IMG/VR virus record: IMGVR_UViG_3300007960_000131
Location: 1 to 28,765 of that record
DNA from: a virus
Reading direction: 5' to 3' (one strand)
DNA: 28,765 bases
Every line of letters begins with the position of its first letter. Position 1 is the stretch's first letter. Shown here piece by piece: positions 1-18,486 of the stretch. Made by a program: the position numbers and the translations under genes. A model generated the notes under the pieces. It had not been told where the DNA came from. It saw only the letters and a list, made by a program, of their open reading frames with translations, and searched no databases.

Positions 1-3000
1 ACAAGCTGAGCACCACTATCCAAAACAATATCAGTTGGCTCATATCCAATAAATGTTGTCTTCCAGTTACCATCTTGATTGACACTTAAATATTTAACTT
101 GCTTCCATTCATCATCTTTCTTTACAAACAACGCTTGCAATTCTTTCCACTGGTCGTCAGACTTGACGTGCATATGAACTGCATTGTTACCGGTAGCTGC
201 TTCCTGGATATTACCTGTTGTAGGACCACTGTATGCAGTAGTACCCATATAAGGAACAATTGATTTTAGTTCACCTCTAAACTGTTGTGGGAACTGATTC
301 TCACCAATATAACTTGGTTGATATGAAGCATGGAATGTACCAGAGTAGGTTTTTGAGTATGCTACTTCACCAGAATAGTTTGTCGAACCTTCATATGCTG
401 CTTCGTATACTGTAGCTGGTGAATATGTTCCAACCCAAACTTTATCATAAGTTTTAGTGTAGATCTTAGTCCATAATTTGTTGTATTCTTTATTATAGTT
501 ACCAACATACAATTTTAAGTAATCAGCAATGTAGTCTTTATTGTAAATTTTATTATATGTTGCATCATATGATTTTGTGTAATTACCTTCCCATACTTTA
601 TTGTATGTCTTCTGCCAGATTTGTAACCAATCCTTGGAATAATCCTTTACATACTCTTTATTATATACAGAATATGCACTTGTGTCACTTTGATAGCCAC
701 CATAAAATAGACCAACATATGACGCCTCGTAGTCTTTAATCCAACTCTTCGTATAGTTCTGGTAGTTGTTATCTTGAGACCATGATTTGGTGTAAAGTTC
801 ATTATATTGAGTTAAGAATCTGTTAGTGAATGTTGGGAACTTATTACCTTCATAATCAGCGTCATAGTTCTTTTGCCAGTTCTTTAAGAATTGGGTACCA
901 AAATGACTACTTACGTAACTATCATAAAATAGTGGTCCTTCATATCCTTTTACGTAAACTTTACTGTATATCTTAGTCCAAGTTTGAATATAATCTTTTA
1001 CGTAGTCGGTCTCCCACGTACTAGAGTATACCTTATCCCAATTCTTTACCCAAGCCTTTTCATATGTCTTTGTATATGTTTTTGAATATGTTTTTACGTA
1101 ATCACCTTCGTACAATTTAACATAGTTTTTACTCCATGCCCTGTCATAATCTTTATTATATTCTGCTGTGTATTCACCTACAAACGTTTGTCCCCAGAGT
1201 CTTTCGTACTGTGCTGTACCAGACCAGTTTGCAATATATTCACCAGAATTTGAGCCTTCGTATGTCAGTCTTAGCTGGTAATTTTTTAATCTAATCATAC
1301 GAATTGCTTCGTAGTTAGTTATCCAATCCTTTGTATATGTTTTTTCCCATCTCTTCTCATAAGCCTTGAGATAGTCCTTTAACCAATTCTTCTCCCAATC
1401 TTTATTATAAAGTTTGACCCATGTCTTTTCATAGTCTGTTACATAATCCTTCACATAATCTTTATCATAATCAGTGACGTAGTCTTTAACCCAGTTCTTG
1501 GTGTAAATGGTATCGTAATTCTTTACGTAATTTTTATCATAATCAGTTTCATATGTTTTTACCCATATCTTTGTATACGTTTTTACATAGTCTTTATTAT
1601 AGTCAGTTTCATACGTTTTGACCCAGTCTTTAGTATAGGTTTTAACGTAATCTTTTTCCCATGTTTTGTCGTAGTCGGTTACGTAATCTTTTTCCCAAGT
1701 CTTATCGTAATCAGTTACGTAATCTTTGACCCAAATCTTAGTGTAGGTCTTAACATAATTCTTTTCATAATCAGTTACCCAATTCTTGGTATACGTCTTG
1801 ACCCAATTCTTTGTATAAATCGTAACGTAATCTTTTTCCCATGTTTTGTCATAGTCGGTTACGTAATCTTTATCATATGACTTGACCCATAGTTTTGCCC
1901 AATTGGTTTCCCAATGTTTTTCGTAAATTGTATCGTAATTCTTTACATAGTTCTTGTCATAGTCGGTTACGTAATCTTTATCATATGACTTGACCCAATT
2001 CTTGGTGTAAGTCTTAACATAGTCCTTCTCCCATGTTTTGTCATAGTCGGTTACGTAATCTTTATCATATGACTTGACCCAGTTCTTGGTATAGATTTTA
2101 TCGTAATTTTTATCATAATCAGTTACCCAATCTTTTGTATACTGTGTAAAGTTTTGAAATCCACCAAAGAAAATCACACCCTGGTAATTTTTTAGGTAAT
2201 TCTTCGTCCAAATCTTGGTCCATATCTTAACATAATCAGCTACGTAATCTTTATCATATGACTTGACCCAGTTCTTGGTATAAAGAGTATCATAATTCTT
2301 TACATAGTTCTTGTCATAGTCGGTTACGTAATCTTTATCATATGTCTTGACCCAATTCTTGGTGTAAGTCTTAACATAATCTTTTTCCCAAGTTTTAGCA
2401 TAATGTGTTAACCAAATTCTAGAGTAACCACCGTAGTATTGAGGGCCACCATACTCTTGTTGATACTCTTTATCATATGTCTTTACATAGTTTTTGGTAT
2501 AGATAGTATCGTAATTCTTTACCCAAGTCTTTTCATAATCAGTTACGTAATCTTTATCATAATCAGTTACCCAATCTTTTGTATATGTTTTTACATAATC
2601 TTTATCATAGTCAGTTGCATATTCTTTTAACCAATTCTTTGTGTAAATTGTATCGTAATTCTTTACCCAATTTTTAGTGTAGATTGTATCGTAATTCTTA
2701 ACATAATTTTTATTATAATCTGTTACATAATTCTTTTCCCAAATCTTCGTATAGGTCTTTACATAGTTTTTGTCATAATCTGTTTCATAATTCTTTTCCC
2801 AAATCTTCGTATAAGTCTTTACGTAATCCTTTTCCCACCTCTTTTCATAATCAGTTACGTAATCTTTTAACCAATTCTTGGTGTATGTTTTCACATAATT
2901 CTTCAACCAATTCTTGGTGTAAATAGTATCGTAATTTTTTTCATAATCAGTGTTATAAAGTGTTACGTAATCCTTTACATAATTCTTGATATAGAACGTG

Positions 3001-4388
3001 TCGTAATTCTTAACGTAATCAGTAACCCAGTTTTTTGTATAGATTGCTTGATACAATGAAGCTCTAAAAGAAGTTTCAGCAATACCGCTGTATGTACCTG
3101 TAAATGTTGTTGTACCCTGGTAAGTTTGCAAACTAATATAGTTAGTATATGACTCAAAACTTCTCGCATATAAACCACCAGCGTAATATGCATAACTGGT
3201 AAATGAAAGTAACCTCGTATAATCTTTTTCAAAGTTTTCTGTTGCAACATAATCAGCTCCATAACCCTTTGTATAATTTTTAATTGATATATACGAAGCT
3301 TCACCTACATAAGTTTTAATGAAGTTTGCAGGACCTGTATATGTACCAACATAATCAACAGTAAAATTACCAACAGTTGAGAATGTGAGGTCGCCCTCAT
3401 AATTTTTTACCCAATCTTTAGCACCGGTGTAATAAATTAAAGAATATTGATTTTGATATGAGTTAAGACCAGAATAATTCTTTAAAAAGTCTGTTACACC
3501 ACCATCACCGGTCCAAACTTTTGAATATGTTTTTGTATATGTTTTTTGCCAAATCTTTTCATAATCGATTGTATAATTTCCAGCACCATATGAGACCGAA
3601 TAATTCTTTGCATAGTCTTTAACATAATCTTTACTATAATCAGTGTTATATGCTAAGTAATGAAGTAACAAATAACTTGTATATTCTTTTGTATATGTGC
3701 CTTCGTAATCAAGAAGTCCAGCATATGTTTTATCGTAACCCTGTTGAGTACTAGATCGATAAACCTGCTCAGACGTGTAAGTTTTTGTCCATAATGTACT
3801 GTATGTTATATCACCTTCATATGTTTTAGTGTAGTTTGTACTATCAATTCTAGTACCATAAGTTCTAAAATATGAAATCCGACCAATAAATTCATGAGGT
3901 ACTTGTAACCCTTGATACTGAATTGTTCCAGTATAGCTTCGTAGAGCAGTGTAGTTTTGTTCTGAAGCATAGTCACCGTGGTAATCTTTTGATACGTTTG
4001 CTAACGCATATATTGAACTATCGATATATGCACCTGTTTTATAAGTATTACCATCTTGTGTTGAATATGCTTTCTGCCAAAACTCAGAGCTAGGTCTTAC
4101 ACCGATACCGGTGTATATTTTTGAATATGTTCTAAGATCAATTGAATTATAATCTACATAATCTGTATATGTCTTTGCATAATTTCTCGTTACAACAGAT
4201 TGATAAGATAAACGTGAAGCTCTAGTATTAGCATATTCACCCTCAAACCCTCCATAACTACCAACGTATGCATTTTGATATAACATAGTAGGTGTTACTG
4301 TTCGGGTACCAGTATAGCTCACAACAGATGTGATAGGTTCACCTGCATATTCTTTTGCATAGAATCGTGAGAGGTACGAGGTCGTCAT
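1..4388 (-). CDS. Giant aromatic tetrad-repeat protein, probable fibre (partial, runs off left edge)
   Basis: The frame starting ATG at 4388-4386 is open for 1462 codons to the window edge, with no stop seen. It begins 12 nt after the preceding gene, with GGATCTGG just upstream. Residues 1-445 are rich in Tyr and Gly with loose tetrads such as YVGT, YTGP, FTGT and YSGI. Residues about 446-1026 form a strict array of four-residue units [YW]-[VDTE]-[KT]-[DNTSI], for example YVTD-YDKT-WEKD-YVKT, so a quarter of the residues are Tyr or Trp. Residues about 1027-1400 return to looser tetrads with Gly at the third place (YEGD, WEGN, YVGN). The end (about 1404-1446) holds three spaced WK motifs (QWKEL, EWKQV, NWKTT), a module I associate with phage fibre C-termini. 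No signal peptide or membrane segment is seen. Last gene of the leftward operon after an S74 fibre, so a host-contact fibre is the best inference; the family itself I do not recognise. Confidence 0.85.
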   Translation of the reverse strand, partial: MTTSYLSRFYAKEYAGEPITSVVSYTGTRTVTPTMLYQNAYVGSYGGFEGEYANTRASRLSYQSVVTRNYAKTYTDYVDYNSIDLRTYSKIYTGIGVRPSSEFWQKAYSTQDGNTYKTGAYIDSSIYALANVSKDYHGDYASEQNYTALRSYTGTIQYQGLQVPHEFIGRISYFRTYGTRIDSTNYTKTYEGDITYSTLWTKTYTSEQVYRSSTQQGYDKTYAGLLDYEGTYTKEYTSYLLLHYLAYNTDYSKDYVKDYAKNYSVSYGAGNYTIDYEKIWQKTYTKTYSKVWTGDGGVTDFLKNYSGLNSYQNQYSLIYYTGAKDWVKNYEGDLTFSTVGNFTVDYVGTYTGPANFIKTYVGEASYISIKNYTKGYGADYVATENFEKDYTRLLSFTSYAYYAGGLYARSFESYTNYISLQTYQGTTTFTGTYSGIAETSFRASLYQAIYTKNWVTDYVKNYDTFYIKNYVKDYVTLYNTDYEKNYDTIYTKNWLKNYVKTYTKNWLKDYVTDYEKRWEKDYVKTYTKIWEKNYETDYDKNYVKTYTKIWEKNYVTDYNKNYVKNYDTIYTKNWVKNYDTIYTKNWLKEYATDYDKDYVKTYTKDWVTDYDKDYVTDYEKTWVKNYDTIYTKNYVKTYDKEYQQEYGGPQYYGGYSRIWLTHYAKTWEKDYVKTYTKNWVKTYDKDYVTDYDKNYVKNYDTLYTKNWVKSYDKDYVADYVKIWTKIWTKNYLKNYQGVIFFGGFQNFTQYTKDWVTDYDKNYDKIYTKNWVKSYDKDYVTDYDKTWEKDYVKTYTKNWVKSYDKDYVTDYDKNYVKNYDTIYEKHWETNWAKLWVKSYDKDYVTDYDKTWEKDYVTIYTKNWVKTYTKNWVTDYEKNYVKTYTKIWVKDYVTDYDKTWEKDYVTDYDKTWEKDYVKTYTKDWVKTYETDYNKDYVKTYTKIWVKTYETDYDKNYVKNYDTIYTKNWVKDYVTDYDKDYVKDYVTDYEKTWVKLYNKDWEKNWLKDYLKAYEKRWEKTYTKDWITNYEAIRMIRLKNYQLRLTYEGSNSGEYIANWSGTAQYERLWGQTFVGEYTAEYNKDYDRAWSKNYVKLYEGDYVKTYSKTYTKTYEKAWVKNWDKVYSSTWETDYVKDYIQTWTKIYSKVYVKGYEGPLFYDSYVSSHFGTQFLKNWQKNYDADYEGNKFPTFTNRFLTQYNELYTKSWSQDNNYQNYTKSWIKDYEASYVGLFYGGYQSDTSAYSVYNKEYVKDYSKDWLQIWQKTYNKVWEGNYTKSYDATYNKIYNKDYIADYLKLYVGNYNKEYNKLWTKIYTKTYDKVWVGTYSPATVYEAAYEGSTNYSGEVAYSKTYSGTFHASYQPSYIGENQFPQQFRGELKSIVPYMGTTAYSGPTTGNIQEAATGNNAVHMHVKSDDQWKELQALFVKKDDEWKQVKYLSVNQDGNWKTTFIGYEPTDIVLDSGAQL
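1311..3053 (-). repeat. 12-bp codon-phased tandem array encoding [YW]-x-[KT]-x tetrads
   Basis: About 145 consecutive four-codon units lie in one frame. The aromatic codon keeps exact 12-nt spacing over hundreds of bases; the phase shifts only at two interruptions, around 2404-2455 and 2143-2185, and the second restores the original phase. Position 3 is nearly always Lys or Thr; position 2 is Val, Asp, Thr or Glu; position 4 is Asp, Asn, Thr, Ser or Ile. Synonymous codons are mixed (TAT/TAC, AAA/AAG, ACT/ACA/ACC), so the protein pattern is better kept than the DNA. Confidence 0.9.
1849..2081 (-). repeat. Three identical 41-nt copies inside the tetrad array
   Basis: The same 41-nt string, beginning tcatagtcggttacg on the plus strand, occurs at 1849-1889, 1957-1997 and 2041-2081. 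Offsets are 108 and 84 nt (9 and 7 tetrads). A further near-copy lies at about 2250-2291 and another begins at 2314. Identity beyond what the amino acids require points to recent duplication or conversion within the array. Confidence 0.8.
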
Positions 4389-4400
4389 TTACCAGATCCT

Positions 4401-4694
4401 TTAGTTAAATGTCTGGTACCAAATGTCTCCGTTTGCACCACCGGATGGTGCACTTGTACTGACATATACGACGTAAGAAGAATCATTGTTTGAGTCAGCT
4501 CCAAAATTCCTTGACGTTTTATTTATCTCTGCAGTTGAGATGGAGTTGACTAAACCTCGATTAGTTACGTTAGCAGTAATAGAAAACGTAGTATTACCAA
4601 ATTCCTGTGTAACTATTCCAGTGTCAGGTAAGGTTGAAACTTGTACGTTTGCAGTTGAGTTAACAATTTCAACACCAGCAACTTTAAGTGGCAT
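4401..4694 (-). CDS. Small fibre-like structural protein, 97 aa
   Basis: A 97-residue protein starting at ATG 4694-4692, overlapping the end of the S74 fibre gene by 11 nt, which suggests translational coupling. The first two-thirds are Val/Thr/Asn-rich and likely beta-structured. It ends SAPSGGANGDIWYQTFN, a Pro-Ser-Gly-Gly...Gly-Asp-Ile-Trp-Tyr motif that I know from the ends of tail-fibre and baseplate-associated proteins in many phages. There is no signal peptide or membrane helix. It sits between a self-cleaving fibre and the giant repeat protein, so it may be a fibre adaptor or a short receptor-binding unit. Function is inferred from context and the C-terminal motif. Confidence 0.7.
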   Translation of the reverse strand: MPLKVAGVEIVNSTANVQVSTLPDTGIVTQEFGNTTFSITANVTNRGLVNSISTAEINKTSRNFGADSNNDSSYVVYVSTSAPSGGANGDIWYQTFN

Positions 4695-5352
4695 GTTGAT
4701 CCTCCAGATCCTTTACTCTTGTGCTCAATTCCTTTACAGCTTCGATAAGTAATGGAATAAGTGATTGATATTTAACTGATAATGCACCATTTCCATTTTC
4801 ACTAACAAGGAATGGAAGTTCTTTTTCAACTTCTTGAGCAACTACACCTAGGTCTGTAGTACCATTTTTATGATCATCTGTATTCCAAGTAAACATATAT
4901 CCATTTAAATTTTGAACAACCTCTAATGCATTTTGCATTTGTTTTAAATCGGTTTTTAAATTGATATCTGATGAGTAACTTGCTTCAACATCACCGAATG
5001 CTCTTACGTTATTAAAATATCCATTTCCAAAAGCCATTGTTGGTGTACCAAGATCATGTGTAACATTTGCATTTACATGCACGTTTGATGCTACGTTAAT
5101 AGCAGCTGATGTACTAACAGAACCACCTCTAATTGTGTCTACAGCAACTAAGGTATTGGCTGAGAATATTCCATTTACAAATCCATTACCTGTAGTAATG
5201 GTGTGGTTGGTACCATTTGGTGATGCGACAGCACCAACAGTTACTTGAATTGTACCAGCATCGTAAACCAACTGGTTTGTTCTCTCAATCCACTCTCTAA
5301 ATGTATCTGTACTAATTGATACATTAGCACCCAAGTATGATGTTTTTGCCAT
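4684..5352 (-). CDS. Short tail fibre with C-terminal S74 intramolecular chaperone
   Basis: A 222-aa protein. Residues 1-120 are Thr/Asn/Val-rich fibre-like sequence ending in a 'FGNGYFNNV' stretch typical of the lead-in to S74 domains. Residues about 121-222 match the peptidase S74 (endosialidase-type intramolecular chaperone) pattern: YSSDINLKTDL, then GYMFTW, LGVVAQEVEKELP, LSVKYQSLIPLLIEAVKEL and a terminal coiled coil. The Ser-Asp at 128-129 and Lys133 five residues later fit the known Ser/Lys self-cleavage dyad. In this family the domain trimerises, folds the fibre ahead of it, then cuts itself off. Here that would leave a mature fibre of about 127 residues. Starts 1 nt after the 71-aa gene. 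A late promoter octamer lies upstream at 5494-5501. Confidence 0.85.
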   Translation of the reverse strand: MAKTSYLGANVSISTDTFREWIERTNQLVYDAGTIQVTVGAVASPNGTNHTITTGNGFVNGIFSANTLVAVDTIRGGSVSTSAAINVASNVHVNANVTHDLGTPTMAFGNGYFNNVRAFGDVEASYSSDINLKTDLKQMQNALEVVQNLNGYMFTWNTDDHKNGTTDLGVVAQEVEKELPFLVSENGNGALSVKYQSLIPLLIEAVKELSTRVKDLEDQHAT

Positions 5353-5353
5353 C

Positions 5354-5569
5354 TTATCCTCTTGCTATTTGGACCAAGAGATCCTTAATTTCTTTCATAT
5401 CATTTTTCAATTGTTCAACATCATCATGTAGGTTTTGTGCATTCTTAGATTCTGCTCGTTGTTTCTTGTATATTTCTAACGAACGTCTATCTGTATTTAT
5501 AAGAGCCATGCTGTTAGGCTCTCTTCCAAGAGAAGATACTTCAGTTTGAATTAATTTTCCTACAGCCAT
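5354..5569 (-). CDS. Small coiled-coil protein, 71 aa
   Basis: A 71-aa protein between the DUF4815 giant and the S74 fibre. The N-terminal half (about 1-30) contains 'MALINTDRRSLE'; residues about 31-71 are charged and heptad-like (Leu/Val spaced among Glu, Lys, Asp), suggesting a coiled coil. It has no transmembrane segment. I recall similar short proteins beside structural genes of T4-like marine phages but cannot assign a function. A small trimerising or attachment protein for the neighbouring fibre is possible, by position only. Confidence 0.7.
   Translation of the reverse strand: MAVGKLIQTEVSSLGREPNSMALINTDRRSLEIYKKQRAESKNAQNLHDDVEQLKNDMKEIKDLLVQIARG
5494..5501 (-). promoter_or_regulatory. 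T4-type late promoter octamer TATAAATA
   Basis: Exact TATAAATA on the minus strand, inside the 71-aa gene. With T4 geometry (octamer at -13 to -6) transcription would begin near 5488, about 136 nt before the S74 fibre start. It could drive the fibre genes and the giant repeat gene. Confidence 0.55.
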
Positions 5570-5576
5570 AATAACC

Positions 5577-8500
5577 CTAAATTGTTACTGCAATTGCACG
5601 ATAGTTTTTAATTCTTGGAACTCTAGTAATATCAGGTGACAACATCACAATCTTAATTTGGAAGGATCTATATTGATTAAATCTAATATTATCACCATTA
5701 AAGTAAGTTACAATTCCTTCATTTCCTGGATCTAAGAACGCTTGTTGTTTCGCTGTTGTATTAACCAAGAACAAGTCAGCTTCCGTGTTGTCAAAAGTCA
5801 ATGCGTTAGCTAGTGTAATTACAGTTGAGTTTGCAGCTGATACTAATTCAAGTTGATAATCGGTTGTTCTACTCGTATTAACAATTTTGAGTAAATCGTT
5901 TGTAGATACAGCTGTTGATAGATCAGTACCATTTGTCGAAATTTGGGTGTTTGCTAAATCAGCTAGACCAGTACCACTTAGTTTTGTAACATCTAATGAT
6001 GTTGGAAAACCAAATTCCATTTCGATAAAGTCATTAATACCTGTTGGAGATGTGAATGAATCATCACCAACTCTTGCTAGTTTAGTCCAATGCTTATCGC
6101 CAAAAGGATCTGGATCATACTCGTTAAGCACTCTTGCCCATACTTGTACGTCTGTTCCTTGTGGTCTTGTTGATGTGACAAATACTTTAATATCTTCTGC
6201 ATCTAAACCAGCATCTAAAGTAACAACCTTTGATACATATTTTGCCAATGCATTACCTTGTCCTGGTAAGTATTCATTTGTTGCATCGTTGTTAATAACA
6301 TGTTCCAATCTGACAATACTTGTTGTACTATCATCTAAGATTGGTGACAAACGATCTAATTGTGTCTTAAACTTATAAGTATGTTTCCAAGACTTAGCAC
6401 CAGATTGATCAACAATCTCATTTGACCTACTTTTAATGTATTGTTCCTCATCGAATCTTGCTCTATTGTCAACTGGATATGAGTTGTTTGCAGAAGAACC
6501 GGTTGCTGTATTTGCTTGAGCAAATTGAGTAAATTCAGTAAGTTCTGGTGAAATATAGTAAATTAAATTTTCAAATCCAGAAGTTTTTAAGTTCTTTACT
6601 GTTGTAACAACTGCATTTGCTTGCGACTGACTTCCAATAATAATGTCGCTATTGGCAAAGTACATTGTGCTGTTTGCTGTTGAATCAATCAAGAACATTT
6701 CTTTATTTCTTGATGTGTTTTCATAAAAGTCAACCGTGCCTTGAGCAGATAACATTACGTTAGCTGTGTTTGCACCTTGTACTGCAAAAGTTGGAAATCC
6801 TTGAATAGTAAGAGAAGTATTGCTTGTAATTGATGTAACCTTTTTTGCATCATGGGACGTTCCATTGGACAATGCTACCCAATCACCTACATTCAAATCG
6901 GTTGTAAACGCGGTACCAGATCCAGTTACTGTTTCTGATGTTGTTGTAAACTGCACGGTACCAGTTATATTTGCTGACGGATCCCATTCGAATACTCTTT
7001 CGCCTTGTTCGAACCCTCCCTGTATACTACTAAGATCAAAAAATTCATAATCCCTGTTTGTATACAGTACTTCACCAGAACCTTTTGTAAAATTGGCTCT
7101 GTAAATTGTCATTTTAAAGTCTTCATCAACAGTTGCTTTCCATGCGGAGTTGTTAGATGAAACAAACAATGATCCAACAAATGAGTCTTTATTCTCAACA
7201 TTTTTTGTAATGAAATCAGCTTCACCAGCTTTTCTTACAAACAACTCATAGTTTGGATTTGCATTATCTGGTGTTACAACAATACAGTATTCTGTAAAGT
7301 TCTTGAGAAACACCAAATCATTAAACGTAACTGTTGTTGCAATAGATCCATCATTAGAAGTATTGACCTGTGAACTATTTAAGTGCACTTGAGAGCCAGG
7401 AATCTGATTCAACGTTGGATATCCATTAAGTACAGATCTTAGTTCAACTGTTACACCCAAGTTAGGATCTTTTGTTTGGAAGTATAGATCAATTTTTGAA
7501 ATGAATACACCAGTAGCGTCTTGTGTATCTTTTACGATAAAGGTCTGAGCAATTGGATCATCACCATCACCATCACCACCATCGCCATCACCATCACCAT
7601 CACCATCACCACCACTTGGAGAGAAAGATGGTGGTGCTGGAGGATTTGGAATAAACCCAACAATACTTTCTGAGGAAACAACTGTTGATTTTTGTGATGG
7701 TGTATTAGTTACAATTGTCTTGGAACCGACTACTGGTCTTTTTGTTTGAAACTGTACTTGTTTTGTTGAAACTTCAAGACTACCTTGATCAACAGAATGA
7801 TTATATGCATTGAAGGTTACTGTTGTAAACGAATCAGCATCGTCAACAGCATTTTGATAAGTATTTTTATTAGCAATGTATACTTCTCTCGATCCGACAG
7901 CATATGTCTCAGATGCTATGTATAAAGAGAAAAATACTTCACCTTTAGAATTTGAATTAATTGCATCTCCTCTTGCACCTGTGGTTCTGAAGTTTGATTG
8001 AATAACTTCATCACTAGAATTTACAGTACAGGGAGTTACGACAGCACTAACGTCCTTTGAATCAAAATAAATATAATGTCTAGTATTTGGTTTTAGTCCA
8101 ACAGCGTAGCAGAAAATAACTTGTTCTCTAATATATGGATTAAACCTTGTATCTTTTACAAAGGTTCCAACGTTTGTTACACTTGTTGTTTCTGTACCAA
8201 TAAACTGATTATGTTTTTCTTGAACTTCTTCAGTTAAAATAGTCTCGTAATGTTCAACAGTCTCGTTTTCAACAATTTCAATTATTTGTGTGCCGCCACC
8301 TGTACTTCTTGTAGTTGCACCAGAAACTCTACTTGAGTTTGTTGTTCCTAAAAAGTTAGTTACACTTTCGGATGAAACGACTTCTGTTGATGGTGCTTGA
8401 ATTGCTTCTAATTGATTTAATTGATTTGCAAGACTTTTAACACCTGAAGACATATCAATCTCAAGTTTAATATCACTTTCAGCAGTATGTCTTACATCGT

Positions 8501-11500
8501 AGAAGTTGTCGTAGTTTGGAAACAAAGATGCTTTACCAAAAAAATTCCAAGATGCTTCAGCTGTGTTTCTTGTTTTTGTTGCAGATCTTTGCTCTAATAG
8601 TGTTGTTGAATTATAGGGTAGGGTAATTAAATCTCTATTCTGTACAGTATTAGTAAACGTCTGTGGTGCAATGTCAATTCTATTCTGCTTAATTCTTGAC
8701 GTCAATACCTTTCTTGCACTATCGTATCCAGCCTTAAATTCTCTATCATTTACAGAAGCTGGTGATTTGGAACTAAAATTGTCAACCAAAATACCGTTTT
8801 TAAATCTGTCTAATGATGTATTTGCCGATGATGGAATCGTGAGAGCTTGTGTATCTTTTTCAAGACTATTTAATGATGTATAATATTGAAGTTTAGTAAC
8901 ATCTTGTCTAAGCTGTTTTAGATCTTGCATTGTTGAACGCTTGATCTGCTTATCTGCTATTGTATAACCATAGTCGATTCTACCCGCTTGCCTTGCTAGC
9001 TTAGCAGAAAGGGAAGGAAATACTGGAACCTCAATACCACATAAAGGCATTACATTATCTTTTGGTCTTGGAGGTACTGGCTTAGATTGTGGCGTACCTT
9101 CTGTTATTTCAAATTTACCATTATCACTTAGTGTTAGCATATCTATTCTTGGTAAATAATGCTGATAGTCGACGACAAGATTTTTTCCTGCAGCAGCGTT
9201 ATATTGTTCACCAGCAAACGTTTTTGTTGCTGCTGGGTTCGTTGTTGCTGCAGCTGCTGTTGTTGCTTCTGTTACATTTGCGGTATTTGCAACATAAGGT
9301 CTAAAATCAATTGCATCTCTAAGATCGAAAACTTGTCCATTTGTTGGTGAAGAAAATACTGGAATTGATTCTGTTCTAATCTTATCAGCAGGAAGTGGAT
9401 TTGTCGTATCGTCTACAGGATAACTGTCGACAGAGAAATAACCATAATTTGATCCAGACTTTGTAAATGCTCTCAAGACAACAAGTATTCTACTAGCTGC
9501 AGAAAGACTCAATGTTGAATTTGTTGTTTGTCTTAGATAACTTAAATTATAGAATCCATCTTCTTGTCTACGATCGAGATAAAAATCAGATGTCTTATCG
9601 TATGTTGCACTTTCAATACCTGTAAAGGTAGTATGAACATAAACTTTTTGAATATCATATACATCTGGAATTCCAAGCGACCATGGTCCACTTGAACCAG
9701 CAGCGTTAGTACTACAATTAATTTTTACATATGAGTTTGCATTAAGTACTTTGTCAATTTGGGCTGCATTGTCTTTTCTAATATTATGGACAACATTAAC
9801 TGTTAGTGTGTCTTCTAATTCTTTACCTCTTGTGCAATTAATGATTACACTATCACCTGTGCCACCAATTGTAATATTACTCGTGGTTGAATCAGCTAGT
9901 GGTACAACTTTATTTTGGGTGAATAATCTTCTATGAGCCTTCGATGTCCCATTTGCAACTGGTTTCGCTCTTACTTGAAGAACTGTATTGTTTGTGATAC
10001 CGGTAATTACCTGGCTTCCGGATATAGTATCAACAACAATTGTGTCCCCTACTCTGTATTCATTAATAAACGCTGTACCTGTTCCAACTATTGTTGTGTT
10101 ATCACTGTTTGTTTGTACTGTACCAGTTAGTGGAACAGTTTGAGCAGTATCACCTCCGGCGACAATTATAAATTCATTTTCCTCATCATCAGACAATGAT
10201 GAGCTAGTTGAATAAGGAAAGAACTGGTCTCCACCTGATAAAGCAAATGTTAATGTACCGTTTGTTTGAACAGTCTGACTTGTAGTAGTTGTTCTGAAGA
10301 TAAACGAAGCGTTGTCAGTTGGTTTATGATTTAGTGTTTTAATACCTTTGTTTGAGAAAGATTGTACTAAAACTTTACGATCTGTTTCATTAAGAACTGT
10401 TTTACCATTTACTAATACAGTGTCGGCAATTGCCTCACCAGAACCACCACCTGCAAATTCAGCAATTGACTTAATATCTCTGAAGTCTTTACCAGCATTC
10501 ATTTGAATGTCAAACAAATAAACTCTATATTGGCACGTGCTTGTTCCTTGTACGCCACTGTTGTATCTAATTGATCTAACTTTAGCAGTACCCACAACTA
10601 CACCAGTATAAGATGGCCCTGATCCTGATACATTTGATCCGGAAATAGAAGGAATTGTTTCATCGCTAGCTGTAGGACAAGTTGAAATTCTATTAGATGC
10701 AGTGTCGAGTAATTTAACTTCAGAATTAGTTTCAATTCCAAAGTTACCAAGATATTCATCAACAATTACGTAGTTACCAAAATTTTGTGATACAACAGCA
10801 TTTTCTACATTAGCAGTATCAGTACCTTTTCTAACTGTTACTCTTGCTGTACCAACTGTTTCAGTTCTGAATCCTTGAACATACGCTTTACCTGTTCCAA
10901 CTAAAACAGTATCGTGTGTTGCATTTGATGTTAAATCTTCTGAAGAAAATGTAAAAGGTTTTACAACATAGTTACCACTTTCTTCGTGTGTTCTTCTTGC
11001 CATTTCCTTACCAAGTTGAGAATAAACCGTCTCTTCTTGAATTCTATTAATATCACCTCTTGAATTTACTTCAACAATCCTTAGGAAATTATTTGGTGCA
11101 TTTGAAGATACAAAAGAATTAGCAACAGCTGATAATTTAAGTCTATCAGCACCAGAAGCATTTACATTATTAAATCCTTGGGCATTATCAAGTAATGTAC
11201 TATCGATGTCTGAACTAATAATCTCTTCTTTTGTTGTAAAACCAACATAATAATTATTTGCAAGAGTTGTATATCTATCAACAAGGATCTTTTGTGGATC
11301 AACATCAACGAAATGACCTTTTTGAAAAATAACACCATCATCACACACAAACCCTACTGTGCTTCCAATTACATTATGCCTCAAATGTTCAGCTCGAGCT
11401 GCTTCTGTTGGTCCTGTTCCTAATAGATAATTAATTTTTCCAGGATCTGCTTTTTGTAGTGAAGAATTTGCAGCTACGAACGAAGTGTTTGACAACAGTA

Positions 11501-12230
11501 ATGCGGAAAGATTTGCACCTGATCCAGTGTTTGTATTTACTGTAATGGTAATCGTTTCTCTTAGATCATAATTTTTACCTGAGTTTGTAACAGTTACAGA
11601 TGTGATGTTACCACTAGCATCTGTTGTTACATTTGCTGCAGCGTTCGAACCTCTTAATGAAGTAAATACTAAAGTGTCACCATTGGTATAACCTGTACCA
11701 CTGTTTGCGATTGAAATGCTATTAATTATACCATTGGCCGAATAGAACTTTAAAACATTTCCAGTAGCAAATTTTTCTACTTCGGTACCGCCAGCTGTTT
11801 TACCAACAGATGTATATCTACCATAAAAAGTATTTAAATTTGGATTTTGAGTTTGAAATCCTGATCTTGTTAATTCAATCTGCATAATTAAATTATTATT
11901 AGCATTACCAGAGGTAGCTTCATACACCAAATAACCATTAGCATAATCACCAATTGAGAATACATCACCTGCTTGATTTCTATCTTCTACTTTAACATAT
12001 TGAAAAATTTTCTTTGTAAAGTTAACACCAGAAATAATTGTGCCGTCTTTAAGAATATTTTGTCCAAAAATTTCAATTTGTTTTTGTAAAATAGATTGTA
12101 GCTGAGTTAGTTCTCTTGCTTGTACAGGAACAGATGGTTTGAAAAGGATTCTATTGTAACCCTTTTCGAAATCGTAGTCGTCAAAGTATGGACTTGCATT
12201 TAAATCAGTGTCGAGTGGATTTCCTACCAT
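5577..12230 (-). CDS. Very large virion structural protein, DUF4815-type, 2217 aa
   Basis: The N-terminus (residues about 14-62) carries YFDDYDFEKGYNRILFKP followed by VQARELTQLQSILQ, the hallmark start of DUF4815 phage proteins, found next to baseplate genes in T4-like marine phages. The body is Thr/Asn/Ser/Val-rich, beta-type and repetitive: GTGYTNGD near residue 178, and two modules of the form GTGTAF...VGD. A Pro-rich linker (PNPPAPPSFSPS) and a Gly-Asp tract at about 1539-1557 divide it into two parts. The region after the tract (IAQTFIVKD...) resembles carbohydrate-binding-like beta domains of such proteins, though I cannot name a fold. An SD-like GAGGAA precedes the ATG, 8 nt after gp8 ends. 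By position it probably takes the place of T4 gp9/gp10 or the long-fibre attachment proteins at the baseplate rim; that is inference. Confidence 0.85.
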   Translation of the reverse strand: MVGNPLDTDLNASPYFDDYDFEKGYNRILFKPSVPVQARELTQLQSILQKQIEIFGQNILKDGTIISGVNFTKKIFQYVKVEDRNQAGDVFSIGDYANGYLVYEATSGNANNNLIMQIELTRSGFQTQNPNLNTFYGRYTSVGKTAGGTEVEKFATGNVLKFYSANGIINSISIANSGTGYTNGDTLVFTSLRGSNAAANVTTDASGNITSVTVTNSGKNYDLRETITITVNTNTGSGANLSALLLSNTSFVAANSSLQKADPGKINYLLGTGPTEAARAEHLRHNVIGSTVGFVCDDGVIFQKGHFVDVDPQKILVDRYTTLANNYYVGFTTKEEIISSDIDSTLLDNAQGFNNVNASGADRLKLSAVANSFVSSNAPNNFLRIVEVNSRGDINRIQEETVYSQLGKEMARRTHEESGNYVVKPFTFSSEDLTSNATHDTVLVGTGKAYVQGFRTETVGTARVTVRKGTDTANVENAVVSQNFGNYVIVDEYLGNFGIETNSEVKLLDTASNRISTCPTASDETIPSISGSNVSGSGPSYTGVVVGTAKVRSIRYNSGVQGTSTCQYRVYLFDIQMNAGKDFRDIKSIAEFAGGGSGEAIADTVLVNGKTVLNETDRKVLVQSFSNKGIKTLNHKPTDNASFIFRTTTTSQTVQTNGTLTFALSGGDQFFPYSTSSSLSDDEENEFIIVAGGDTAQTVPLTGTVQTNSDNTTIVGTGTAFINEYRVGDTIVVDTISGSQVITGITNNTVLQVRAKPVANGTSKAHRRLFTQNKVVPLADSTTSNITIGGTGDSVIINCTRGKELEDTLTVNVVHNIRKDNAAQIDKVLNANSYVKINCSTNAAGSSGPWSLGIPDVYDIQKVYVHTTFTGIESATYDKTSDFYLDRRQEDGFYNLSYLRQTTNSTLSLSAASRILVVLRAFTKSGSNYGYFSVDSYPVDDTTNPLPADKIRTESIPVFSSPTNGQVFDLRDAIDFRPYVANTANVTEATTAAAATTNPAATKTFAGEQYNAAAGKNLVVDYQHYLPRIDMLTLSDNGKFEITEGTPQSKPVPPRPKDNVMPLCGIEVPVFPSLSAKLARQAGRIDYGYTIADKQIKRSTMQDLKQLRQDVTKLQYYTSLNSLEKDTQALTIPSSANTSLDRFKNGILVDNFSSKSPASVNDREFKAGYDSARKVLTSRIKQNRIDIAPQTFTNTVQNRDLITLPYNSTTLLEQRSATKTRNTAEASWNFFGKASLFPNYDNFYDVRHTAESDIKLEIDMSSGVKSLANQLNQLEAIQAPSTEVVSSESVTNFLGTTNSSRVSGATTRSTGGGTQIIEIVENETVEHYETILTEEVQEKHNQFIGTETTSVTNVGTFVKDTRFNPYIREQVIFCYAVGLKPNTRHYIYFDSKDVSAVVTPCTVNSSDEVIQSNFRTTGARGDAINSNSKGEVFFSLYIASETYAVGSREVYIANKNTYQNAVDDADSFTTVTFNAYNHSVDQGSLEVSTKQVQFQTKRPVVGSKTIVTNTPSQKSTVVSSESIVGFIPNPPAPPSFSPSGGDGDGDGDGDGGDGDGDDPIAQTFIVKDTQDATGVFISKIDLYFQTKDPNLGVTVELRSVLNGYPTLNQIPGSQVHLNSSQVNTSNDGSIATTVTFNDLVFLKNFTEYCIVVTPDNANPNYELFVRKAGEADFITKNVENKDSFVGSLFVSSNNSAWKATVDEDFKMTIYRANFTKGSGEVLYTNRDYEFFDLSSIQGGFEQGERVFEWDPSANITGTVQFTTTSETVTGSGTAFTTDLNVGDWVALSNGTSHDAKKVTSITSNTSLTIQGFPTFAVQGANTANVMLSAQGTVDFYENTSRNKEMFLIDSTANSTMYFANSDIIIGSQSQANAVVTTVKNLKTSGFENLIYYISPELTEFTQFAQANTATGSSANNSYPVDNRARFDEEQYIKSRSNEIVDQSGAKSWKHTYKFKTQLDRLSPILDDSTTSIVRLEHVINNDATNEYLPGQGNALAKYVSKVVTLDAGLDAEDIKVFVTSTRPQGTDVQVWARVLNEYDPDPFGDKHWTKLARVGDDSFTSPTGINDFIEMEFGFPTSLDVTKLSGTGLADLANTQISTNGTDLSTAVSTNDLLKIVNTSRTTDYQLELVSAANSTVITLANALTFDNTEADLFLVNTTAKQQAFLDPGNEGIVTYFNGDNIRFNQYRSFQIKIVMLSPDITRVPRIKNYRAIAVTI
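7558..7612 (-). repeat. In-frame hexanucleotide repeat encoding a Gly-Asp tract
   Basis: A run of (ACCATC)-type hexamers, mildly degenerate, encodes alternating Gly and Asp with two extra Gly. It follows a Pro-rich linker. Any slippage by whole units keeps the frame and changes the tract by two residues per unit, so it may act as a flexible, length-variable hinge. Confidence 0.85.
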
Positions 12231-12238
12231 TGTTTCCT

Positions 12239-13993
12239 CTAAAACTTAAAGACCAGTTTAATTGTTTCTGTTGTTGTGTTTGATCTTGACACACTTTCGA
12301 TATTTTTAAGCAATAAAACACTACCTGAGTTTCTAACCAAATCTGGACTAATTTTACTTTTAAACCGAACCGTTTCATTTGACGTACTACCAGTAACAAT
12401 ATCTGTATTGGTTATATCAAATGCTCCTCTTATTGTTGTAAGAGAAGTTACAGTACTGTTACTTGCATAAACAAATGCATTAGCATTATTTATAGTGTCG
12501 GTTACCTTCTCATCTTCACTAAATGGATTACCACTTAATAAATTATGACTATATTTTCCAGTTTGTTGAAAATAATCAGTATTTGATCTAGAACTATCTT
12601 CAGCATTAACTCTAACACCAACGACTGTTGCTGTTGCACTAGATGTAGATCCAGTAACATTACCTGAGTTAGCAAAACTACCATATGCATTTGTTAATCT
12701 CATGACAGTAGTGTTTGAAAAAGATATTGCACCTTTTGCATTTGCAGTATTTAAAGTAACAGTTTCACCCGTTGTAAAGTTAGCGGTTTGATTTTCAAAT
12801 GTGATCATTACATTTGCATAATGTGGATCTTTTAATAATCCTACAGTTCTAAAATCATTATCTGTCTGAATCTGACTAGCTTCATTATTAGCAAAGTCTG
12901 TACTAATTATAATATATCTTGCATTTAATTCTTCTTTTGGATTTGACGCATGACCACCATATGGACCTATAATTGCACGGGCAGAAGCTAGGTTAGCTGA
13001 CTCCATGTTATTTGCTTCAATGGTAACATCAGCAAACGTGTAACCCGAACCTCGCTGTAATATCTCTACGTTTGATATAGTATTAGTGCTTGTGTTGATT
13101 ATTGCACGAGCTTCAGCATTTGAACCATCACCTCTGATTCTTACAAGAGGAGTGATTTCAAATGTTGATGTTCCATCTGGAGCTGAAGATAATGCATTGT
13201 TAACAGTAACAGTTTTAGTAGAACCATCGTAATCAGTAATCTGCTTAAACTCACCATTACCTACACCGCCTGTAAAATATATCATACAATTGTTATAAAA
13301 ATCATTATTTCCAGAAGCTGTGCTGACAATTTTAAACACAGTTGTGTTTGTTGAAGATACGACAGATCCGGATACGTATTCATTATAATTGTTTCCACTG
13401 TTTGAAACAACATAAGCATCAATTGAACCGTTAATTGCATTAGATACAGCATTTGCATGACTTACAATCGGAATGTATGTGTTTGAAGCAAACTTATCCC
13501 ACGTTGCCTGAGGTATTGTATACATAAATCTCCACTGGTACCCGTCAGCAGCAGATTTAATGTACAGTGTATCTAATGCTGCAGAGACATCAGAGAACAA
13601 AGGAGTTGAATTAGATGCAACACCACCATTGTTATCAATACATTTCCATACGTGATAATCTGTACCTTCTGATGTATATACAAAATAATTATTTGAGTCT
13701 AATCCAGTTGATGTAGGATCATACATTGCATATACAGTATTATTTGTCCAAAGACGTTTTTCAATAGCCTGTGATACGTCAGAACTTGTAACAAGTTTAC
13801 CAGATATCATTTCATCATATGTTTGATGTAGAGAATTTGCAATAGAAGCGTTAGGATCTGGTGTCGTAACTTCTATATAATCTCTATGCTTTGACGTAAA
13901 TACATAATATCTAGAGTTTGCTGCTTCATCTAATGACTCAACAAACTGACTAGCAACATGTACGTTATATTCTTTGTAAGTCTTACTACTCAT
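12239..13993 (-). CDS. 8: Baseplate wedge subunit gp8-like, 584 aa
   Basis: Resembles T4 gp8 (334 aa, a dimer in the baseplate wedge) in order and spacing of landmarks. An N-terminal VASQFVESLDEAANSRYYVF is followed by a Trp-Thr segment, YFVYT...HVWKCIDN at about 103-121, STPLF, and DGYQWRFMYTIP at 150-161. The C-terminus (TTTETIKLVFKF) parallels the T4 gp8 end. The middle, about 200-560, is a large beta-rich insertion compared with T4, including RGSGYTFAD near residue 314, like motifs in gp7 and the DUF4815 protein. The order gp6, gp7, gp8 is the T4 order and supports the call. It carries an internal late-promoter octamer near its 3' end. Binds gp7 and gp10 in T4. Confidence 0.85.
   Translation of the reverse strand: MSSKTYKEYNVHVASQFVESLDEAANSRYYVFTSKHRDYIEVTTPDPNASIANSLHQTYDEMISGKLVTSSDVSQAIEKRLWTNNTVYAMYDPTSTGLDSNNYFVYTSEGTDYHVWKCIDNNGGVASNSTPLFSDVSAALDTLYIKSAADGYQWRFMYTIPQATWDKFASNTYIPIVSHANAVSNAINGSIDAYVVSNSGNNYNEYVSGSVVSSTNTTVFKIVSTASGNNDFYNNCMIYFTGGVGNGEFKQITDYDGSTKTVTVNNALSSAPDGTSTFEITPLVRIRGDGSNAEARAIINTSTNTISNVEILQRGSGYTFADVTIEANNMESANLASARAIIGPYGGHASNPKEELNARYIIISTDFANNEASQIQTDNDFRTVGLLKDPHYANVMITFENQTANFTTGETVTLNTANAKGAISFSNTTVMRLTNAYGSFANSGNVTGSTSSATATVVGVRVNAEDSSRSNTDYFQQTGKYSHNLLSGNPFSEDEKVTDTINNANAFVYASNSTVTSLTTIRGAFDITNTDIVTGSTSNETVRFKSKISPDLVRNSGSVLLLKNIESVSRSNTTTETIKLVFKF
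12487..12494 (-). promoter_or_regulatory. T4-type late promoter octamer TATAAATA
   Basis: Exact TATAAATA on the minus strand in the 3' part of gp8. The predicted transcription start is near 12481, about 251 nt before the DUF4815 gene. It may give that gene its own late transcript; being within coding sequence, chance occurrence in AT-rich DNA cannot be excluded. Confidence 0.45.
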
Positions 13994-13996
13994 TTA

Positions 13997-16666
13997 CTAT
14001 GCCTGTACAACACTAGATTCTATTGCTGACGATTCGTTATTTGCAAATGAATCAACTACTACTTTGCCAAACAACTTATAACCAGCAGTGTGGATGACGT
14101 CCTTAACTACTTTTTCATACTTATTTAGCTCAAATTCAGATAGGATTTGATATGAGAATGTCTGGTAAAAATCATTATCATGAATAAAATAATTCTCATT
14201 TAACGCACCGTATTTTCTTCTCCAATAACCTCTACTGATACCTGTTCCATTTGCAACAGCTGTACCTGTTACTAATTGAGCTATTCCATTTACAGTAAAT
14301 GATACATTCTCACCTGTTTTAAATCTATAACCTGAATCAACAACTTCAATCGTATCAATTATTCCAGTACCAATAGTGACATTTGAGCTTATTGTTGCGT
14401 TTAATCCTGTTCTTATAGTTTCGTTCCAAGAATTAGCTGGATAGTTGACTCTTGTTGGTTCTAACGACTTATAATTATTGTTTGTTTGTAATCTATCGGT
14501 TGTAGATATTCTAAACAATTCATCAACAGAATGCATTCTTGCTGTCAAAGATTGTGAAGATGTGTTTATTGTAAGTACTTTTCCAACAGCCAAATGTGTT
14601 TGTGTGCTGTTTGTTTGGGTATCTATTAATGAACAATCAACCGTGTTTCCACTTATAAATCCTGTTATTGTATTGCTACTAAATGTAACTGAGCTACCTG
14701 TAACATAAAAGTTGTCACCATCAGTTTTCTCAACAAGGTTGCCTAATTTTAAATATGTTGTATTTGAATCAAGTACAACAGCATAATTATTTACTGTTGA
14801 GCTTTTCTCTTGTACAATTCCTTCACCAATAGCTAATGGATTAACAGCACTTGAGAATGTTATAACCTTTACGTCGGACGATCTACTTTGTCTTAGAATA
14901 TCACCTTGAATAGGTGCAGGACCAGCTAGGTTGATATAATCAACTTCCACATCTCTTACATTATAACCATCGATGTATCTGTTTTGAGGCAATACAACTG
15001 GATTGCCAGAATATGTGTTACCGGTGTCATTAATAGTGAGTATTGAAATTTCTCCCAACAGCTCATTTTGAAAAGTAAGAGCCTTTTCGATCACAGAATC
15101 AACATTTGCTGATGTGTCTTTTACAAAACCATATCCATTGTCAGATACGTTACTTGTGCTACCATCTATAACCATATCTAAAAACGCAACATTACCGGCG
15201 TTATTTGCATTTATATAATCTGTATATACATTAGCAGTGACACCGTTTAGAATAGTTGTAATTTCAATATTTGAACCAGTACCAGACACATTTGTTATAA
15301 TGTCTGCATATGTATTTGACGTCAGTCCTCTAACATACATTTGAGCATCAGCAAATGGAAATGCAATATTGTTTGCAACTAATCCAATATTTTTTCCATT
15401 GTCGCCAATATATGTTCCATATGCATATGTGTTTGTTATAGATACAGGTGTTGCATTTGCATATGTATTAGCTATGATTTGTAAATTTACAACACTACTG
15501 CTAAATGAACCAGTTGTCTCGTAAACAAACAAAGACCCTTCAGATGTGTTCCCTGAAATTAAACCAATATTACCGTTTGCAACTACAACACCATTCGCAT
15601 TTAAACCAACGACCCAAGTACTGGTGTTTGCTGCATTATAAAAGTCATCAGACGCAGCTGTGTATTCAATTGTTATTCTTGGCGATTCAATTGTTTCAAA
15701 TAAATCAAATGTATTGGCTGGTCTTGTAGTCAGTGGATGACTTGTAACTAAATCGTCAAACTGAGCGGATACAAATGTGTTAGATACATTATTTACTTCA
15801 AGCGTAACTGTACTAACCAATACATTACTTATTGATGTATTGGTTGAATAACCAGAACCGACACTTGTAGTAATAAAATTTGGTATGCCAGTTCCATCTT
15901 TTACAGATAAAACTCTAACATGACCATGCGTTGAAGTATTAGCTGTTGATTTTACATCTAAAGTATCACCAACAGCATAATTGTTACCACCAGCTGTAAT
16001 TGTTAAATTATTTAATGAACCATTTAGTCTAATTTTTTGTGAGCCTGATTGTCCATTAGAAATTAGTTCATTACCTTGAAACTCACCTACTAGATTATCC
16101 AAGAACATAATTGTTAATAATGTTCCTTGTACAGAAGTGCCTACAATAGATGTTACATAAGCTGATGCTTTTGAGGTTTCACCAGTAATTGTTCTTCCGA
16201 GAAATGTTTTTAAAACATCTTCATCTGGTATATAACACTCAACGTATCTTGGCTTAACAAACTCAGCATCAGAAGGTCTTAAAATATGTACATTGGGTAC
16301 ATAAAGATCTGCATCTTTACCATAAACTAATTTAAATAATAATTTCACACACGTTTCATTGCCTTTCGATCTATAGAGATCAAGAATGTGTTTTGTAACA
16401 AAACCAACGTCTAAATTTGACACATCAGGTAATGAGAAAAGATAAGTTTCTTTAAAATGTTTAAGAAAATCACCAACACTTTGATCAACATCAATATATT
16501 CAAGCATGTTTCTTGATATTTGAAGTGTGTTGTTATTTTGTTCTAAATGTTCATAATATGCTTTTAAAAACAATGTTAATAATGGAGCATCATCTCTATA
16601 GACACCAGGAAACTGCTGCTCGAGAAAGATAGAAATAGAATTCTCAATATTATTGAGCTCAGGCAT
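13997..16666 (-). CDS. 7: Baseplate wedge subunit gp7-like, 889 aa
   Basis: The N-terminal 125 residues match the helical core of T4 gp7: FLKAYYEHLEQNN (33-45), then a region aligned to 'VARFFESRSYDFYSTKG' of T4, here VTKHILDLYRSKGNE (90-104), then VKLLFKLVYGKDADLYVPN (107-125). The long beta-rich middle has several GxGY..GD motifs (around 226-234, 270 and 777). The last 60 residues (YQTFSYQILSEFEL...VIHTAGYKLFGKVVVDS) match the closing helix-strand of the gp7 core. T4 gp7 is 1032 aa with a long N-terminal beta-propeller-like part before this core; here the core is at the N-terminus. Start overlaps the gp6 stop by 1 nt (TAATG). gp7 clamps the gp6 ring in the wedge. Confidence 0.85.
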   Translation of the reverse strand: MPELNNIENSISIFLEQQFPGVYRDDAPLLTLFLKAYYEHLEQNNNTLQISRNMLEYIDVDQSVGDFLKHFKETYLFSLPDVSNLDVGFVTKHILDLYRSKGNETCVKLLFKLVYGKDADLYVPNVHILRPSDAEFVKPRYVECYIPDEDVLKTFLGRTITGETSKASAYVTSIVGTSVQGTLLTIMFLDNLVGEFQGNELISNGQSGSQKIRLNGSLNNLTITAGGNNYAVGDTLDVKSTANTSTHGHVRVLSVKDGTGIPNFITTSVGSGYSTNTSISNVLVSTVTLEVNNVSNTFVSAQFDDLVTSHPLTTRPANTFDLFETIESPRITIEYTAASDDFYNAANTSTWVVGLNANGVVVANGNIGLISGNTSEGSLFVYETTGSFSSSVVNLQIIANTYANATPVSITNTYAYGTYIGDNGKNIGLVANNIAFPFADAQMYVRGLTSNTYADIITNVSGTGSNIEITTILNGVTANVYTDYINANNAGNVAFLDMVIDGSTSNVSDNGYGFVKDTSANVDSVIEKALTFQNELLGEISILTINDTGNTYSGNPVVLPQNRYIDGYNVRDVEVDYINLAGPAPIQGDILRQSRSSDVKVITFSSAVNPLAIGEGIVQEKSSTVNNYAVVLDSNTTYLKLGNLVEKTDGDNFYVTGSSVTFSSNTITGFISGNTVDCSLIDTQTNSTQTHLAVGKVLTINTSSQSLTARMHSVDELFRISTTDRLQTNNNYKSLEPTRVNYPANSWNETIRTGLNATISSNVTIGTGIIDTIEVVDSGYRFKTGENVSFTVNGIAQLVTGTAVANGTGISRGYWRRKYGALNENYFIHDNDFYQTFSYQILSEFELNKYEKVVKDVIHTAGYKLFGKVVVDSFANNESSAIESSVVQA

Positions 16667-18099: not shown

Positions 18100-18102
18100 T
18101 TA
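18100..18102 (-). other. In-frame nonsense codon (TAA) interrupting gp6
   Basis: The context is ACA TAT TAA TTC TCT ACA, with gp6 homology on both sides in one frame. TAA also ends several neighbouring genes (gp25, the hub, gp6 itself), so it is a true stop here. One base change from AAA, CAA, GAA, TAC or TAT explains it. Confidence 0.85.
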
Positions 18103-18486
18103 ATATGTATTGTCACCTACTGTTGTTGTAAATGAAGTAAGCCTAGGAATAGTAATTTGATGTGGATTTGTTACAGGATTAACATCAATGTTAATGTAAG
18201 CAACAGAACTTCTATATGATCTTGGTAAGTAGTTTAGAGATTTTGCAATTGAATAAACACTATCTCTTAATTGAGCACTATCAAGGAACATCTCTGATGC
18301 TACGTGATTAAGATACACATTGTTGTAATACGTATTGTATGATAAGAGATCCATCAACACGTTTAGATTGGAGCCTGTGAAATCATAATCAGCAAAAACT
18401 GCTTGACCCTGCATAAAGGAGATCAAGTTACTTTTGATAGAATCAAATTCTAAGTTGGCTACCGAGAACTCAGTGTTCGCTGCCAT
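18100..18486 (-). CDS. 6: gp6 baseplate wedge, N-terminal part (128 aa, ends at in-frame TAA)
   Basis: A clear gp6 N-terminus: FDSIKSNLISFMQGQAVFAD, YDFTGSNLNVLMDLLSYNT, ASEMFLDSAQLRDSVYSIAK and a 'LNYLPRSYRSS' turn, lining up with T4 gp6 'FLDYDFEGSRLNVLCDLLAYNT'. It stops at TAA (18102-18100) right after VGDNTY, whereas the frame goes on for another 477 sense codons of gp6. Total with the stop read as sense would be 606 residues; T4 gp6 is 660. The ATG sits directly against the gp25 stop (no gap). Confidence 0.85.
   Translation of the reverse strand: MAANTEFSVANLEFDSIKSNLISFMQGQAVFADYDFTGSNLNVLMDLLSYNTYYNNVYLNHVASEMFLDSAQLRDSVYSIAKSLNYLPRSYRSSVAYINIDVNPVTNPHQITIPRLTSFTTTVGDNTY

Follow-up and report, generated by a model that had tools for sequence, protein, structure and literature searches.

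What kind of protein is encoded at the edge of this viral contig, where an aromatic residue recurs at every fourth position over hundreds of residues? The window, by which we mean the whole stretch of DNA analysed (28,765 nucleotides of IMG/VR record IMGVR_UViG_3300007960_000131), had been described beforehand from its letters as holding a single frame of at least 1462 residues at one end. That frame is borne out, on the minus strand (window positions 4388 to 3), and the plus strand has no open frame in the region 3-4388. The gene, its subdivisions and its neighbours are collected in Table 1. We refer to the encoded protein and its relatives as type A.

Table 1. Features of the array gene and its surroundings (positions in the window; residue numbers refer to the type A protein)
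Feature	Positions	Strand	Basis or remark
Type A predicted adhesin, N-terminal 1462 residues	3-4388	-	open frame with ATG start, runs off contig end
Irregularly spaced aromatic-rich N-terminal part of array 1, residues 1-445	3054-4388	-	spacing analysis
Array 1 core, near-continuous [YW]-x-[KT]-x tetrads, residues 446-1026	1311-3053	-	exact 4-spaced chains
Phase break YGGPQYYGGY, residues 646-655	2424-2453	-	similar to the GPxYYGGF apex motif seen in relatives
Second phase break and candidate apex YQGVIFFGGFQNFTQY, residues 735-750	2139-2186	-	sequence
Putative return arm, the less regular second half of array 1, residues 1027-1370	279-1310	-	spacing chains
Collar of three W-K repeats, residues 1405-1455, leading into GP38-type domain	24-176	-	sequence; conserved in type A homologues
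97-aa ORF	4401-4694	-	ORF of 97-105 aa upstream of type A in loci examined
Shaftless S74 (intramolecular chaperone) fibre protein, 222 aa	4684-5352	-	PF13884, E=3.3e-13
71-aa virion structural protein	5354-5569	-	phrog_473, E=5.9e-14
2217-aa DUF4815 protein, syntenic neighbour	5577-12230	-	PF16075, E=2.5e-45; phrog_358
T4-like baseplate wedge genes	12239-17928	-	phrog_438, phrog_17744, phrog_219

Within the core of array 1, whose limits (residues 446-1026) had been given exactly, 149 of 581 residues are aromatic (25.6%) and 102 of 581 are lysine (17.6%), close to the quarter and the fifth estimated earlier. Unbroken aromatic chains run through residues 446-646 (51), 651-735 (22) and 750-1026 (70), and the longest of these exact four-spaced chains, at 70, compares with a maximum of 10 and a mean of 4.6 over 2000 shuffled versions of the protein. 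The tetrad consensus is [YW]-[VDTE]-[KT]-[DNT]: of 182 tetrads, position +2 is K in 129 and T in 34, +1 is V, D, T or E, and +3 is D, N or T. Chains recur in the return-arm half at residues 1061-1149 and 1242-1322.

Comparison with the homologue on contig L003 gives a dN/dS of 0.156 for the array gene (0.17 for residues 1-445), and 2 of 328 aromatic positions have turned non-aromatic while 5 have changed aromatic type. The low ratio and the retention of the aromatics indicate that the array gene is a real protein under selection and no sequence artefact. The preliminary description had named a stop codon or frameshift on resequencing as evidence that would overturn it; a single intact frame is found independently in L002 and L003. 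The complete homologue in L003 (positions 8001-17249) has 3082 aa, is 95% identical to the window protein and comprises, in order, array 1, three W-K repeats, a glycine-rich GP38 domain, a second array (array 2) of ~1,300 residues and a glycine-rich C-terminus. The protein is giant, as first described, but its extent had been understated and it has two arrays rather than one.

The window ends before the GP38 domain, and our account of that part rests on the 95%-identical L003, in which PF05268 (GP38) scores 32.1 bits against a Pfam gathering cut-off of 25. The same family exceeds the cut-off in L107, L113, L109 and L376 (37, 35, 43 and 44 bits, respectively), in L376 over profile positions 4-216 of 218. 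The glycine-rich domain of L003 also matches phrog_2056 ('tail fiber protein; host specificity'), and the long polyglycine motif IENYGIIGGGGGGGGASG is present in the GP38-type domain together with C-terminal glycine-rich motifs. Searched by sequence against the PDB, the GP38-like tip returned no significant match. An uninterrupted GP38 domain with the same collar is encoded by an upstream gene in L109 (full-length in L361); the profile match is continuous there and ends at profile position ~120-125 in the interrupted proteins. Each half of the split domain is ~40% identical to the uninterrupted L109 tip, an alignment that identifies array 2, at the level of sequence, as an insertion within the GP38 domain.

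Array 2 starts 10-20 residues past GGGGGGGG, which in S16 gp38 (151-GGGGGGGG-158) forms helix 3 of the polyglycine sandwich (PMC6851490). The loops at the distal end of S16 gp38 are its proposed receptor-binding sites (PMC6851490), and loop-B of PP01 gp38 consists of residues 161-170 (PMC12892980). Judged by position, the site of array 2 probably corresponds to this loop-B.

A profile search recovered 18 type A loci, several of them on near-duplicate contigs. The GP38 tip is intact in L361, L362, L375, L376 and L377/378, array 2 is present as an insertion of 834-1579 aa in L363, L365-L370, L372-L374 and L379, and L364 and L371 are cut; the GP38 adhesin is split by the second array in most giant-array type A relatives. 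One locus, L367 (4863-14269), has its type A gene broken into overlapping frames, one of 1527 aa and one of 1673 aa; in the closely similar L363 the gene is a single frame of 3160 aa.

Type A proteins share with the GP38 adhesins (PF05268; S16, PP01, T2) a glycine-rich domain bearing a GGGGGGGG run, the Pfam family, a tail-fibre neighbourhood and a tryptophan-bearing segment ahead of the domain. That segment is here the collar of three W-K repeats, whose tryptophans (W1414, W1428 and W1442) are spaced 14 apart, and in S16 gp38 three tryptophans attach to gp37 (PMC6851490, PMC12892980). The L376 collar is modelled by AlphaFold2 as beta-strands, as against helices in S16 gp38 (PMC6851490). Whereas S16 and PP01 gp38 have ~260 residues and neither array, type A proteins add an N-terminal array of up to ~2,200 residues (L361, L362) and, in most giant relatives, the in-domain array as well. 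We favour, on balance, the view that the window gene encodes a GP38-family adhesin of an uncultured T4-like phage whose shaft has been replaced by giant aromatic-tetrad stalks.

The arrays themselves belong to no named repeat family, as had been supposed: those of P0001 and P0003 match no Pfam or NCBIfam family, sequence searches of the arrays against the PDB gave no significant match, and no function is assigned to the repeat in Pfam, PHROGs or NCBIfam. One array segment of P0001 matches phrog_15773 (E=2.6e-10), itself without an assigned function. A search of the literature on such aromatic repeats returned nothing relevant, and the architecture was not found described.

Similar arrays occur in a second family, type B (327-3364 aa), whose members start with a head of related domains in tandem, continue with an array and end in a C-terminal strand. 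In most of the giant-array contigs long enough to show it, the gene that follows type A is a type B gene; this is not so in L003, the relative closest to the window. The +2 residue is Gly in the short type B proteins and Lys in some giant ones, and the array is bordered on one side by the final conserved segment of the head and on the other by the C-terminal strand, which is modelled with the head. Among the matches listed, unbroken runs of exactly spaced aromatics reach 243, in homologues that are not independent of each other. Two contigs (L203 and L211) carry tandem type B genes (466/636 aa and 491/635 aa) whose head domains differ and whose YSGx arrays are similar.

Only one match was found among 50,697 named phage records, protein WJE88074 of C48C1 (Kyanoviridae), a type B relative of 3347 aa that shares the C-terminal strand and has arrays of the form [YF]-x-[GR]-x; unlike the window protein it has Gly or Arg at +2, not Lys, and it has no assigned function. 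In L001 (19597-20331; ~1815-2060 of the C48C1 protein) the array encloses a non-repeat domain of ~245 residues that matches no family significantly and is a candidate apex domain. A scan of cellular genomes for the aromatic-x-Gly pattern found short low-complexity tracts and no comparable array among the 119 stretches listed. A 586-aa ORF of L148 has a different N-terminus, with weak matches to disaggregatase-repeat/CBM96-like sequences, and a YTGS array of 15/13 tetrads (residues 286-409) around a cysteine-flanked centre, CDRCCHAH; this array is possibly a convergent hairpin, stapled by metal or disulfides.

How the arrays might fold is indicated by their symmetry. An apex near the middle divides the arrays of short type B proteins into arms of n and n-1 tetrads, 9+8 (three proteins), 10+9, 11+10, 12+11, 14+13, 17+16, 22+21 and 25+24, and in L141 (type B, 1301 residues) they number 116 and 115. 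Two-residue phase breaks are mirrored about the centre (L235, 7,5,6|5,5,7; L126, 6,5,5|4,5,6; L128, 10,5,5,5|...5,5,10), and an apex motif like GPxYYGGF lies at the mirror centre of the type B arrays of L107, L363 and L374. In L074, 90% of the aromatics pair across the mirror (z 11.5). For the long type B arrays the mirror spans cover nearly the entire array with z of 5-13, gapped and ungapped tests agreeing, and in five related type B proteins the identity of the +2 residue across the arms peaks at mirror shift 0 (z 3.5-5.4). Cross-arm charge complementarity was flat over all shifts tested. DNA inversion cannot yield a reversed order of amino acids, and the symmetry therefore reflects structure, that is, arms paired in antiparallel register. 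Matched arms and mirrored breaks fit a register-locked antiparallel beta-ribbon.

Type A array 1 behaves in part alike. In L363, L372 and L374 its mirror z is 6.4-7.6 and its symmetry centre lies inside a Laminin_G_3-like domain, matched at the L363 apex by PF13385 with E=1.1e-17 and 65 bits against a cut-off of 27.6. No Laminin_G_3 domain was evident in the window array by Pfam search. In the best gapped mirror alignment of the window array, residues 196-1352 pair around a centre close to 776, with z of 8.0 when one arm is shuffled and 5.5 when all spacings are shuffled; the shuffled-spacing null preserves spacing composition but no regional trends, and leaves unaccounted for any trend in regularity that the two arms share. 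Centres at 742 (an FFGGF motif), 776 and 886-902 score within a few units of one another, and the mirror-shift test gave no residue-level agreement across the arms of the window array. An ungapped mirror test, whose centre differed between the window and L003, was dropped for the gapped one. Array 2 of several relatives has no clear mirror symmetry. A hairpin is therefore strongly supported in type B, moderately in array 1 of type A and weakly in array 2.

These observations bear directly on the main idea of the earlier account, a fibre of stacked beta structure. Phage fibres are usually trimers, in which the shaft gives reach and the tip gives specificity. A parallel trimeric beta-fibre with stacked aromatic rings, built like ordinary phage shafts, would suit the beta-favouring composition, the habit of phage fibres of this size to be homotrimers and the shaft-like placement of array 1 before the tip domain. 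Arms of equal length, phase breaks at mirrored places and a lectin-like apex in mid-array do not follow from it, and it would have to accommodate arrays that sit within loops whose ends must adjoin, in the type B head region and in the GP38 domain; we regard it as unlikely. What stands of the stacked fibre is a beta stalk, probably folded out and back as an antiparallel hairpin, as the mirror-symmetric arms of relatives suggest.

Mirror-matched arms are also unexpected in an intramolecular beta-solenoid with tetrads as the sides of its coils (e.g., three tetrads, or 12 residues, per coil). As such a solenoid would have it, L001 and L141 show enrichment of a three-tetrad lag, and the window a weak enrichment, but other arrays favour a seven-tetrad lag or none, and local duplications explain lags of this kind. 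Higher-order periodicity was rejected as a solenoid signal, the lags varying between proteins. Foldseek searches of the AlphaFold2 model of L185 against the PDB and BFVD returned nothing at E<=0.001, which also counts against a solenoid, and we consider this fold very unlikely. The weak fold matches of the L185 model reach Z of 2.6 at most; one of them is T4 gp11 (44 residues, Z 2.4).

The L185 model consists of two long strands and a turn, with pLDDT of 36-57 in the array and mostly >85 in the head and C-terminal strand. The model of full-length L376 has a mean pLDDT of 38, with ~30 in the arrays and 24-41 in the glycine-rich part, and was set aside as uninformative about the arrays. Array pLDDT below 57, together with the high charge and aromatic content, is what one might expect of a largely disordered, sticky low-complexity chain, in which aromatic stickers every four residues would give weak multivalent adhesion. 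Exact spacing, near-invariant aromatics under purifying selection and symmetric arms all need register, however, and make such a chain quite unlikely. The spacing of four is near a helical turn and had raised the alternative of a long alpha-helix with an aromatic stripe, which now appears extremely improbable: the tetrads have Gly at +2 in relatives and Thr, Val, Asn and Asp elsewhere, their breaks are commonly two-residue insertions (spacing 6) and uncommon at 7, and an array helix is absent from both AlphaFold2 models. The original preference for beta over helix holds, on the beta-branched residues, the +2 Gly of relatives, the two-residue breaks and the low-confidence AlphaFold2 strands.

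The antiparallel hairpin suggests the following scheme. Each array would leave a loop, turn at an apex and return as a register-locked beta-ribbon, one face of which would bear the +2 residue (G or K/R) together with the aromatics. The ribbons would presumably pack face to face, and they may pair or trimerise via the aromatic face. For array 1 of the window, arms of ~580 residues at ~3.3 Å per residue would correspond to a stalk at most ~190 nm long. Such a length is comparable to that of the T4 long tail fibre. The stalk apex would carry a recognition element, lectin-like in some relatives, and the GP38 tip, with or without a long finger of its own, would contact the receptor. Array 2, placed just after the GP38 polyglycine run, may act as another long finger that reaches out to the host, and the three collar tryptophans may dock a single adhesin chain onto a trimeric base, as S16 gp38 is docked on gp37. 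This retains the giant phage tail protein and the stiff stalk with an aromatic ladder of the preliminary description. Sugar binding by the aromatic face, also proposed there, seems less likely than recognition by the apical lectin-like domains and the GP38 tip.

A broader proposal, to which we give somewhat less than even chances, is that aromatic-tetrad arrays are a new structural class: register-locked antiparallel beta-ribbon stalks, ~20 to 450 nm long and following a code of four residues (aromatic, x, G/K, x), that phages insert in adhesin loops and that replace trimeric shafts. An analogy, and no more than that, is the bovine ultralong CDR-H3 'stalk and knob', in which a loop of a binding domain is drawn out into a two-stranded beta-ribbon with a small knob; its sequence is unrelated, it reaches up to 70 residues rather than hundreds to thousands, and it lacks a strict period of four (PMC12009342). 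Reach would here appear to be supplied by single-chain ribbons with a four-residue code, and arm lengths that evolve in matched pairs imply that length changes must be symmetric. If this is true, the arrays offer a rule, simple and open to test, by which a very long and stiff protein stalk can be built, and a receptor-contact loop tolerates an insertion of a thousand residues. The family is almost unseen in cultured phages, yet present in many IMG/VR contigs.

The surroundings of the gene bear on the replacement of the shaft. The wedge genes fix the array gene in a T4-like tail module. In the S74 fibre protein the chaperone domain is C-terminal (PF13884, 50.1 bits against a cut-off of 22), and the protein also matches tail-fibre and long-tail-fibre-distal-subunit PHROGs. 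In giant-array loci where it is readable, the S74 gene encodes 219-227 aa, an N-terminus plus the chaperone, as in the window; next to small type A proteins (994-1143 aa) the S74 fibre has 1031-1366 aa, with full-size homologues in L375 and L377. The S74-chaperoned trimeric shafts (gp37-like) are encoded by the adjacent gene and belong to the same virion module, and the arrays, which lack a trimeric-shaft signature, appear to take their spacing role. We infer that the arrays took over the role of the fibre shaft; alternatively, the short S74 protein of giant-array phages may reflect common descent within a few clades.

Nucleotide identity to L003 is ~99% upstream and falls to 90-97% from the S74 gene onwards (window 3-5352), and dS is 0.15 in the array gene and 0.02 in the DUF4815 gene. 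The drop in identity and the contrast in dS suggest exchange of a module at a host-recognition locus. Farther along the module, the gp6-like wedge gene (window 17900-18486, minus strand) has a single in-frame stop (VGDNTY*FSTNADIV) with the frame open on either side, which may be a sequencing error or a real split. Window positions 7557-7615 encode a GD-rich low-complexity linker (GDGDGDGGDGDGDD) in the DUF4815 protein, and its length differs from that in L003.
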